Shown here piece by piece: positions 23,026 to 28,310 of a stretch of DNA of 64,000 bases; position 1 is the first letter of the stretch; the number at the start of each line of letters is the position of its first letter. This DNA is from Phycisphaerales bacterium (GTDB lineage: Bacteria; Planctomycetota; Phycisphaerae; Phycisphaerales; UBA5793). Where the stretch lies: NCBI GenBank assembly GCA_020852515.1, contig JADZAS010000002.1, positions 62,001 through 126,000 on the forward strand, read 5' to 3'. The translations under genes and the position numbers were made by a program. The notes below the pieces were generated by a model. That model did no database searches. It was not told where the DNA came from and was given only the letters and a program-made list of their open reading frames with translations.

Positions 23026-23604
23026 TTAGCCGCTGCTGCTCTGTTCGTATGCCACCTTGAGCAGCTTCTTCACTTCGGCGGTGATCTCCGATGCCTTGCT
23101 CAGCGCCAGCTTGTGCGTCGCCTGGCCTGGCGCCTTGGCGGGAGTGAGCAGTGGGGACCTGGGCGCATCGGTGTACTTCAGCCCGATATCGATACGGGTC
23201 TTCGTCGTCGCGGCGATGGCGCAGAACTGCCGCCGGCGCACGAACGGCGTGTAGGATGAGCGCCCCTCGACGCTGACATCCTCGCCGAAGCCTTCGATGA
23301 TCGTGCGGAGTTTGTCAAAGATCGGTCGCAGCGCCGCCTTGTCGCCGGCGTATTGCGAATCGATGTACTGCTCCACATCCGGCCGCTTCCACCCCGCCGC
23401 CTGCGCGGCGGCGTCGGCGATCGCCCAGCGCGAATTCTGCGGCAGATCGTGCTCGCTCTTGAGCCACTTGCGCACCGCATTCTGATCCAGCGGATCGACG
23501 CCGCTCCTGCCCACGAGCATGACCCACTGCTCAACAGTGCGGCCGGTGCGCTTCTTCATCGACTCGGTCACGGCGGCGATCATGTCGTTGGGTGAGTGGG
23601 GCAT
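23026..23604 (-). CDS. DUF4287 / DUF5655 protein
   Basis: 192 residues. The N-terminal half (SPNDMIAAVTESMKKRTGRTVEQWVMLV, WLKSEHDLPQNSRWAIAD) matches DUF4287. The C-terminal half (IFDKLRTIIEGFGEDVSVEGRSSYTPFVRRRQFCAI, ending KASEITAEVKKLLKVAYEQ) matches DUF5655, a small domain often fused to DNA-related or transport proteins. It is not enzymatic by any motif I can see. First gene of a two-gene unit with the DUF6891-like gene. Confidence 0.8.
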   Translation of the reverse strand: MPHSPNDMIAAVTESMKKRTGRTVEQWVMLVGRSGVDPLDQNAVRKWLKSEHDLPQNSRWAIADAAAQAAGWKRPDVEQYIDSQYAGDKAALRPIFDKLRTIIEGFGEDVSVEGRSSYTPFVRRRQFCAIAATTKTRIDIGLKYTDAPRSPLLTPAKAPGQATHKLALSKASEITAEVKKLLKVAYEQSSSG

Positions 23605-23740
23605 GAAAAATGCTAGCCCGAACCACCCTCGCGGGTGAAGAGCGCTTCATCCCCTGCTTACCGCGGATTCACGTCGCCTCGATATGCTCAAGGTTCAGGC
23701 CCGCGCACATCGGCGCGGACGCAGTGAAAGGAAATCGACC

Positions 23741-24064
23741 ATGGCCAACAAAGCAGAGCGGATCGACGTTGAACAGGCCCGGCAGGACGTACAGTCCGGC
23801 CAGGCGCTGCTGGTATGCGGCTACGAGGAGCCGGAGAAGTTCGAGAACAATCACCTGCAGGGCGCGATATCGCTGCAGGATTTTGAATCACAGCGCGACT
23901 CCGTCCCCAAGGAGCAGGAGATCATCTTCTACTGCGCGTGACAGGAGGAACACACTTCTGCCGGTCTGGCAGAGCAATACGAAGATCGCGGCTACACCAA
24001 TACGAAGGCGCTCAAGGGCGGCGTCGATGCGTGGAAGGAAGCAGGCTTGCCCGTGGAGGCGTGA
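23741..24064 (+). CDS. Rhodanese-domain protein with in-frame TGA, probable selenoprotein
   Basis: Single-domain rhodanese, 107 residues when the TGA at 23939-23941 is read as selenocysteine (residue 67). Before it: ERIDVEQARQDVQSGQALLV, ENNHLQGAISL, then KEQEIIFYCA. After it: QEEHTSAGLAEQYEDRGY, then ALKGGVDAWKEAGLPVEA and a normal TGA. Both halves match the rhodanese consensus without a gap. Cysteine-containing relatives have FYC-x-C-x-x-E-x-x-S, so the TGA replaces the second Cys of a Cys-x-Cys active loop. A hairpin with a GGTCT apical loop lies 14 to 33 bases past the TGA, as in bacterial SECIS elements. GAAAGGAAA precedes ATG 23741. Likely role: persulfide or selenide sulfurtransfer. 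A nonsense mutation is the alternative. selA/selB/selC/selD are not in the window. Confidence 0.8.
23956..23974 (+). promoter_or_regulatory. Candidate bacterial SECIS hairpin
   Basis: Stem TTCTGCC (23956-23962) pairs with GGCAGAG (23968-23974), six Watson-Crick pairs and one G-U, around the five-base loop GGTCT. The loop GG is 22-23 bases after the TGA; in E. coli fdhF the loop contains GGUCU with the GG at about 19-20 bases. Both loop sequence and distance are those bound by SelB. Confidence 0.75.
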
Positions 24065-26029: not shown

Positions 26030-27166
26030 CTACAGACTCCGCGCCACTTCCTCAGCCACTTCGAGCGTTGAATCCGCCGCGGCGTCACCGGCTCTCACCT
26101 TTCGTACGTCGTATGTCGCCACCTTGCCGTCGCGGATCACCTTGGCGACCGCGCTCTCCAAACGGTTGGCCAGGTCCGCCTCGCCCAGCCAGTCGAACAT
26201 GAGTTTGACCGTCAGCAGCATCGCCATGGGGTTGACGACATACTTGCCGGCGTACTTGGGGGCTGAGCCGTGGGTCGGCTCGAAGACGGCGTATTTGTCC
26301 CCGATGTTGGCAGCGCTGGCGAAGCCGAGGCCGCCCACCAGGCCGGCGCAGAGGTCGGAGATGATGTCGCCGAACATGTTCTCAGCCACGAGCACGTCGT
26401 AGTCCTGCGGGTTCTTGATCATCCACATGCAGATGGCGTCGATGTTCGCCTCCCAGGCGGCGATACCCGGGTAGTCCTTCGCCACCTGGCGGAAGATGCG
26501 CGTCATCAGTCCGCCGGTCTCGCGCAGGACGTTGGGCTTTTCGACGAGCGTGACGGACTTGCGGCCGTGCGTCTTGGCATACTCGAACGACTGGCGGCAG
26601 ATGCTCTCGCAGCCCTGTTTGCTCATGATGCGCGTGGAGAGCGCGACATTCTCGAGGCCCTTGTCCTTCCACGGCTTCATCTTGGGATTGAGGCACAGGG
26701 CCTGGCAGACGGACTCGGGCAGCGGGAAGAACTCGACGCCGCCGTACATGCCCTCGGTGTTCTCGCGGAAGACGACGAGGTCGATGTCATCGCGATAGTT
26801 CAAAGGGTTGCCGGGATAGGCCTTGCAAGGGCGGAGGTTGGTGTGGAGATTGAAGAGCTGGCGCAGCTTGACGATGGGGCTGAAGTAGACCAGCCCCTTG
26901 CCGTGCAGCGATGGGTCGAGCTCGGTCTCGGCCTCCTCGCGCGGCTTGCTGGTGATGGCGCCGAACAGCGCGCAGTCGGTTGACTTGAGGATGTCGATCG
27001 TGCGCTGCGGCAGCGGGTCGCCCTCCTTGCACCAAAACTCCCAGCCGATGTCGGCGTGGGTGTAGCGAGCGTCGAACCTGAGGGCGTCGAGGACAAGTTT
27101 CGCGGCTTCCATGACGTCGTTGCCGACGCCGTCGCCGGGCATCCATGCGATGTGGTACTGGGGCAT
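26030..27166 (-). CDS. Isocitrate/isopropylmalate dehydrogenase family protein
   Basis: 378-residue NAD(P)-dependent beta-hydroxyacid oxidative decarboxylase. The start MPQYHIAWMPGDGVGNDVM, the substrate-binding NLRPCKAYPGN, the FRENTEGMYGG loop, and the signature NIDAICMWMIKNPQDYDVLVAENMFGDIISDL are all present, as is the closing EPTHGSAPKYAGK cofactor loop. Candidates are NAD-isocitrate, 3-isopropylmalate, homoisocitrate or tartrate dehydrogenase. Because the nearby hydratase is of the homoaconitase type, a homoisocitrate- or isocitrate-like substrate is favoured. Its first 43 codons are duplicated in the chimeric pseudogene at 28311-28824. ATG 27166 has only a weak GGA upstream; the frame stays open upstream for long but that part is antisense to the aspartyl protease gene. 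Confidence 0.88.
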   Translation of the reverse strand: MPQYHIAWMPGDGVGNDVMEAAKLVLDALRFDARYTHADIGWEFWCKEGDPLPQRTIDILKSTDCALFGAITSKPREEAETELDPSLHGKGLVYFSPIVKLRQLFNLHTNLRPCKAYPGNPLNYRDDIDLVVFRENTEGMYGGVEFFPLPESVCQALCLNPKMKPWKDKGLENVALSTRIMSKQGCESICRQSFEYAKTHGRKSVTLVEKPNVLRETGGLMTRIFRQVAKDYPGIAAWEANIDAICMWMIKNPQDYDVLVAENMFGDIISDLCAGLVGGLGFASAANIGDKYAVFEPTHGSAPKYAGKYVVNPMAMLLTVKLMFDWLGEADLANRLESAVAKVIRDGKVATYDVRKVRAGDAAADSTLEVAEEVARSL

Positions 27167-27241
27167 TGGTGAGTCCGTTTCGAGAGTTTGAGATGAGCCG
27201 CCGGGCCAGAATTCCCGGCGGCGTGAGTATAGTCCGCAGCC

Positions 27242-28255
27242 ATGCAAGACCTGCGTTGGTTCAGATCGGTTCAGCGCCGGCGAGGCGAGCCTCGCGCGGG
27301 CAGTGTGCCGGGTTGTTGCGTCGTGCTGATGGGCGCCGCGCTGCTGCTGGGCGGCTGCGCGCTGGGCTTCAATCCGCAGCGCGTGCCGGCATCGGTGGAG
27401 ATCCCTGCGGAGGGAGTAATCGTCCCCCTCGAAGTGGCGGACAACTTGCCGTTCGTCCAGGTGAGCGTCAACGGCTCTGAGCCGCTGTGGTTCATGATCG
27501 ACACCGGCGCGTTCACGGCGATCATCGATGACGATGCGGCGGCCGCGGCCGGAATGAAAGCCTCGATGCGTTTCGGCACGCACGCGACTTCGGCGGGCGA
27601 TCACTTCGGCCGCATGGACCAGGCGGCCTTTGATCGCCTGACCATCGGCGGCGCGACGTTTGCCGGGTTCGAGGGACTGGTGGCCGATCTGTCGCACCTG
27701 GAGGCCGCCGTGGACCACCCTTTCGACGGCGTGATCGGCATCCCGCTCATGTACGCGAGTGTGTGGACGATCGACTACCCGGGCCGGCAGCTGCGCATCG
27801 CACCGGCATCGGCCGAGCTGCCCGATGATGAGCACGTGCTGCCGTTTCTCTACAGCGGCGATGCGCCGGCCATCGAGATTCACGTCGGCGAGGTCGCCAT
27901 CCAGGCCGAGATCGACACGGGAAGCAGCAGCGGACTCGACCTGAGCCCCGAAGATGCCCAGCGGTTCCCGCGGGACGACGGGCCGTCGATCAGCATCAGG
28001 CATCAGACCTTGACGGGCGAGGTGTGGGAGGAACTGGTGCGGCTGAAAGGCACGGTGCGCATCGGCTCGCTCACGCGCGAGGGGCTCATGGTGAGCCTGG
28101 CTCGCGACACGATGCTGGGAGGCGAGATCCTCAGCAACTGCATCTTCACGATCGACTGCCCACGCCAGCGCGTGCGGATTGAAGAACTGGCGAAGGAATC
28201 GGCCGCCAAGCCGGCGGAAGAAGCTGAATCCAATGAAGCGGCGGCGGATCCGTGA
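27242..28255 (+). CDS. Retropepsin-like aspartyl protease, lipoprotein
   Basis: 337-residue protein with two aspartyl-protease half domains. The first active motif is MIDTGAF with Asp87; the second is EIDTGSSSG with Asp225, spaced as in single-chain bacterial pepsin-like/retropepsin-like proteins. The Gly-rich strand DHPFDGVIGIPLM between them is typical. A hydrophobic stretch VVLMGAALLLGGC ends in a lipobox-like Cys39, so export and lipid attachment are likely. Start at ATG 27242 or an internal ATG at 27329; the latter would leave too short a signal, so the first is chosen. It is divergent from the dehydrogenase gene with 75 bases between them. Confidence 0.8.
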   Translation: MQDLRWFRSVQRRRGEPRAGSVPGCCVVLMGAALLLGGCALGFNPQRVPASVEIPAEGVIVPLEVADNLPFVQVSVNGSEPLWFMIDTGAFTAIIDDDAAAAAGMKASMRFGTHATSAGDHFGRMDQAAFDRLTIGGATFAGFEGLVADLSHLEAAVDHPFDGVIGIPLMYASVWTIDYPGRQLRIAPASAELPDDEHVLPFLYSGDAPAIEIHVGEVAIQAEIDTGSSSGLDLSPEDAQRFPRDDGPSISIRHQTLTGEVWEELVRLKGTVRIGSLTREGLMVSLARDTMLGGEILSNCIFTIDCPRQRVRIEELAKESAAKPAEEAESNEAAADP

Positions 28256-28310
28256 CATCGAATCGCTTCTCGCTGTCAAATACGCAGTCGATCGATCCCG
28301 GGAACACTTC

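Follow-up and report, generated by a model that had tools for sequence, protein, structure and literature searches.

Escherichia coli GlpE is a single-domain rhodanese that, to our knowledge, contains no selenocysteine (Sec) and no second Cys or Sec two residues on from its catalytic Cys. Rhodanese selenoproteins with a CxU motif have been listed in two reviews (PMC9312934, PMC13188914), and NCBIfam describes a family with a Cys-x-Sec loop and a rhodanese domain, NF041203 (rhodanese_LYCAU, 'rhodanese-related (seleno)protein'; rhodanese-like form 3, CxU, in PMC13188914). A Sec-containing rhodanese domain is also found in the TsoB rhodanese/DsbD fusion-like selenoproteins (NF045694), where the Sec spacing is UxxxxU.

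The window, which is the whole 64,000-nucleotide stretch of DNA that was analysed, carries a gene of this general kind on its forward strand. From our comparative and genomic analyses, we conclude with high confidence that the UGA at codon 67 of this gene is read as Sec. This conclusion is drawn from sequence data: TGA and Cys are equivalent among relatives, the coding sequence stays conserved beyond the TGA, a SECIS hairpin follows it, and the host genome has a complete Sec pathway. The features of the gene are the following.

23727..23734, + strand: purine-rich ribosome-binding site AAAGGAAA, 5' of the ATG, seen in the sequence; AAAGGAG is at the equivalent place in the gene of G009, a genome of the same genus
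23741..24064, + strand: predicted rhodanese selenoprotein gene, 107 residues with read-through (coordinates include the stop)
23933..23935, + strand: codon of Cys65, the predicted catalytic (persulfide) cysteine, from the end of model strand 60-64 and from relatives
23939..23941, + strand: in-frame TGA, codon 67, predicted Sec67, from TGA or Cys in relatives (one remote Ser) and the full sel gene set
23956..23974, + strand: predicted bSECIS hairpin with a 7-bp stem (TTCTGCC/GGCAGAG) and loop GGTCT, from its fold and, across 17 genes, its constant position and paired changes in the stem
24062..24064, + strand: true stop codon TGA, seen in the sequence; the G009 gene has TAA at the equivalent place

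The locus and its relation to described rhodaneses

The initial annotation described a rhodanese frame interrupted by a single TGA, and the start at ATG 23741, the interruption at codon 67 and the terminal TGA at 24062-24064 all agree with that description. The frame reads MANKAERIDVEQARQDVQSGQALLVCGYEEPEKFENNHLQGAISLQDFESQRDSVPKEQEIIFYCA-U-QEEHTSAGLAEQYEDRGYTNTKALKGGVDAWKEAGLPVEA and contains no stop other than the TGA at codon 67; the active loop is Cys65-Ala-TGA, that is, CAU at residues 65-67. Automatic annotation would cut the protein at residue 66. A truncated product of 66 residues, as originally proposed, is correct for ATG 23741, but ATG 23684 in the same frame gives an ORF of 85 residues up to the TGA. 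The terminal stop of the gene is itself TGA, and the genome therefore uses TGA as a stop. No match was obtained in an Rfam scan of the whole window, and ARAGORN detected no tRNA in it.

The divergent neighbour (window 23026-23604, - strand) contains DUF4287 and DUF5655, and the G009 gene has this DUF5655 neighbour next to it as well. Apart from DUF5655 within the genus, the neighbours in six relatives included no common functional partner, and no pathway is indicated. In an ORF of 749 residues elsewhere in the window (26030-28279, - strand), the match to isocitrate/isopropylmalate dehydrogenase does not begin until residue 376, and translation therefore probably starts at an internal site.

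With its CAU loop, the window protein belongs to the CxU rhodanese-like selenoproteins of the reviews, which have Cys-x-Sec in the active loop; the likeness to these is by motif only. With NF041203 it has the Cys-x-Sec loop and the rhodanese domain in common, and this family is its best NCBIfam match (E 6.3e-20). However, the score of 71.1 bits is below the equivalog cut-off of 115, as are the scores of proteins from a Desulfobacterales MAG (L056, 73.4 bits) and the isolate Desulfoluna spongiiphila AA1 (L057, 60.1 bits), both Thermodesulfobacteriota with CAU at the site. None of 392 genomes of the host phylum passed this cut-off. The window protein differs from NF041203 in starting near profile position 19 and in having an LVCAY motif, and the GG of its SECIS loop is at +22, whereas the NF041203-like L065 and L076 have less uniform hairpins. 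A tree that also included three rows that were NF041203-like or outlying grouped the LVCAY rows to one side of a 99/99 branch. On the basis of this branch and the score of 71 bits against a cut-off of 115, sequence comparison places the window protein adjacent to, not inside, the NF041203 equivalog, in an 'LVCAY' subfamily that goes undetected at the curated cut-off.

TsoB likewise has a Sec-containing rhodanese domain, but its Sec spacing is different and the protein is far longer, and the window protein reaches only 19.6 bits against NF045694. Other rhodaneses of the phylum with an in-frame TGA were also observed (L106, G427:C82; L108, G326:C9; L100, G326:C71); the loops in this group are FYUAGYSUNAS (UxxxxU, as in TsoB), LTUGGGSRS (TGA at the catalytic Cys) and YCWHRTUQLS. 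CxU rhodanese selenoproteins are already catalogued, and the window gene is a new example of modest novelty.

The active loop and the predicted role of residue 67

The read-through frame matches Pfam PF00581 (Rhodanese) over residues 29-101 (E 4.8e-10; 40.2 bits, gathering cut-off 22.2). This match spans codon 67, in line with the initial claim that the rhodanese consensus continues uninterrupted past the TGA. AlphaFold2, run with 17 relatives, gave a model of rhodanese fold with a mean pLDDT of 91 and a TM score of 0.80 to E. coli GlpE (PDB 1GMX), which is also a single-domain rhodanese. Cys65 immediately follows strand 60-64 of the model, and a helix begins at residue 71; by our reading of the alignment, the catalytic Cys of GlpE is at the same strand end. 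The position of Cys65 in the model thus puts the TGA in the catalytic loop, two residues past the predicted persulfide Cys. Cys65 is invariant in the A1 alignment, in which U is written as C; in five relatives of the UxU form this position is TGA. The window protein is probably a cytoplasmic single-domain rhodanese.

As in other rhodaneses, Cys65 would accept sulfane sulfur. The selenolate of Sec67, built into the loop, would resolve the Cys65 persulfide by attacking it. Sulfide would thereby be released, or the sulfur handed on, and a thiol system would then reduce the Cys-Sec bond left behind. In that case the activity of the protein would be that of a sulfane-sulfur reductase or transferase coupled to redox chemistry, and it would not be an ordinary rhodanese acting on cyanide or thiosulfate. 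The series of CxC, CxU and UxU loops found among the relatives would be consistent with a redox pair in the active loop. We propose this resolving chemistry at residue 67 tentatively, as a serious possibility that falls a little short of being probable.

Alternatively, Sec67 may be real but serve in selenium handling, such as the delivery of Se to SelD or the binding of perselenide, and not in sulfane-sulfur reduction. Rhodanese folds are able to handle selenium, and the window protein has LVCAY in place of the DVR-type motif of ordinary rhodaneses. Nevertheless, selA is above cut-off in all six genomes of the window's family, whereas the window-type rhodanese gene is patchy, being found in two of the six at E <= 1e-4. 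Since most genomes of the family that have the Sec pathway do without the gene, Sec synthesis does not depend on it. In addition, the complete genome G285, where searches for selA and tRNA-Sec found nothing, keeps a Cys form. We therefore regard a selenium-handling role as unlikely, and retain the resolving role of Sec67 as the working proposal.

Decoding of codon 67

A subfamily profile search of the 392 genomes of the phylum gave 25 matches in 24 genomes, with active loops of the types CxU (15), CxC (5), UxU (4) and CxS (1). The CxU matches include three of family f50, L130-L132, that are apparently damaged upstream of the TGA: L130 (G553:C229) and L131 (G409:C1) have an extra TAA upstream of the Sec codon, and L132 (G348:C5) lacks the usual N-terminus there. 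These copies suggest recent gene loss in some lineages. The subfamily tree is poorly resolved, so that the number of Cys-to-Sec changes is not fixable from it.

The TGA was initially said to stand exactly where relatives have their second Cys, and this is borne out: near relatives have TGA at the site, and distant ones have TGA or Cys. The protein of G009 is 81% identical and has TGA at the same codon. A different sense codon in close relatives, which would have spoken against Sec, was not seen in near relatives; a single remote relative (L135) has Ser at the position (CxS). Beyond the site, where UGA aligns with the Cys of homologues, coding conservation continues. Between the window gene and that of G009, 22 of the 40 codons after the TGA differ, 17 of them synonymously and 5 nonsynonymously, through 17 third-position and 6 first- or second-position substitutions. 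The dN/dS ratio after the TGA is 0.042 (NG86) or 0.066 (YN00), which indicates constraint no weaker there than in the part before the TGA. Purifying selection on the 40 codons past the TGA is strong.

These data bear on the possibility that the TGA is a real stop, leaving a decayed rhodanese or a functional fragment of 66 residues. TGA is also the genuine terminator of the window gene, and the f50 relatives, with their extra TAA codons or missing N-terminus, do look damaged. However, the purifying selection past the TGA, the lack of any other stop in frame, the recurrence of the TGA at this codon in distant genomes, the conserved hairpin and the presence of the sel genes make a real stop very improbable.

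The selenocysteine reading is further supported by the hairpin, whose loop GGTCT, start 14 bases past the TGA and loop GG at 22-23 bases had been given exactly in the initial annotation. The stem pairs 23956-23962 with 23968-23974 around the loop at 23963-23967, with 14 bases from TGA to stem and 21 from TGA to loop, which places GG at +22/+23. We take the loop GGUCU to be that of E. coli fdhF. Published bSECIS constraints are a loop of 3-9 nt, a stem of 4-16 bp and a spacing of 16-37 nt (PMC13188914, Fig. 2A legend), together with G in the first two loop positions and an energy of at most -7.5 kcal/mol (PMC13188914). The window hairpin lies within all of them (loop 5, stem 7 bp, GG first, spacing 21 nt). 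In isolation it has an energy of -9.6 kcal/mol (about -9.2 to -9.9), and none of 200 shuffles was as good. When a 52-base stretch was folded unconstrained, a competing structure was preferred, and for this reason thermodynamics alone is not taken as proof. Against random synonymous recoding, the window hairpin on its own was not significant (p = 0.073). Fisher's combined value, 2e-9, covers 21 genes, two of them from outside the subfamily, and is overstated because the genes are related.

Given this weakness of the single hairpin, the argument depends on comparison among genes. All 19 subfamily TGA genes have the loop GG at +22/+23, and the hairpin is at or below -7.5 kcal/mol in 18 of them. 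In an alignment of 17 genes, 90.8% of cells are paired and both sides have changed at four of the seven pairs. The covariation score of these genes is 0.263, against 0.125 +/- 0.023 in shuffles (as high in 0 of 500), and is also unmatched by the structure slid one to three bases; as the stem is coding sequence, part of the stem conservation is due to protein constraint, and the sequences are also related. SelB would be recruited by the GGUCU hairpin just 3' of the UGA and would direct tRNA-Sec to codon 67.

The absence of selB or tRNA-Sec from the genome had been named in advance as fatal to a Sec reading. Both are present, together with selA and selD, in a single cluster of about 5 kb (G000:C16:98.6-103.3 kb). 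The scores of selA (531 bits), selB (363 bits) and selD (348 bits) all exceed the curated cut-offs, and the tRNA-Sec (68 bits) is called SeC with anticodon tca by ARAGORN. The selD gene has a TGA in its own active-site motif, CAGUAGK.

Because conservation past the TGA requires read-through of some kind, UGA might also be read by a near-cognate tRNA, or be recoded, without selenium. This is contradicted by the terminal TGA of the window gene and by the presence of a tRNA-Sec (anticodon TCA) and a sel cluster, and the partners at the site are Cys, not Trp or Gly. Furthermore, the complete genome G285 has Cys, in a CxC form (L129, G285:C1:1943413-1943727), and searches of this genome for selA and tRNA-Sec gave no match. 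Among TGA-bearing genomes from the same family, selA was found in all five tested and tRNA-Sec in both of those tested. Decoding of UGA without selenium is accordingly given hardly any weight. L129 is a natural Sec/Cys switch, as the other matching members of its family are CxU. A sequencing or assembly error in a Cys codon (TGC/TGT), although Cys is one base away and the assembly is a draft of 39 contigs, is ruled out in practice, because the same TGA and hairpin recur in independent genomes, namely G009, closed genomes such as G437/G446, and the isolate L057 from another phylum.

The UxU form and the LVCAY subfamily

The UxU form was detected at five loci in five families: L028 (G162:C814), L127 (G466:C534), L128 (G341:C168), L133 (G224:C5) and L137 (G219:C96). 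Four come from the phylum profile search and the fifth, L028, from the window's order. Both active-loop Cys codons are replaced by TGA (TGAGSCTGACC), and there is one conserved GGTC hairpin, the loop of which begins 22 bases past the second TGA. Genomes G162, G341, G224 and G219 have selA and tRNA-Sec. In G466, an incomplete MAG, selB is above cut-off, selA is present only as a fragment at a contig edge, and a search for tRNA-Sec gave no match. The UxU form is the newest side observation of this study; it is unnamed in the reviews PMC9312934 and PMC13188914, although absence there is no proof of being unreported.

A reading that we consider fairly likely is that the window gene is a member of a separate 'LVCAY' subfamily, as yet without a name, with CxC, CxU and UxU loops, in which the UxU form would combine a catalytic with a resolving Sec, its two UGAs apparently sharing one GGUC hairpin. 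If so, UxU would be a sulfurtransferase that forms a diselenide, and it would offer a natural test of whether one SECIS can serve two adjacent UGAs. A group of selenoproteins of this phylum probably goes misannotated, since a protein such as that of the window would be truncated by automatic annotation and falls short of the cut-off of the curated NCBI model. The UxU form raises a testable question on double Sec insertion, and the series of CxC, CxU and UxU loops with one fixed hairpin provides a clean comparative system for the contribution of selenium to rhodanese chemistry.
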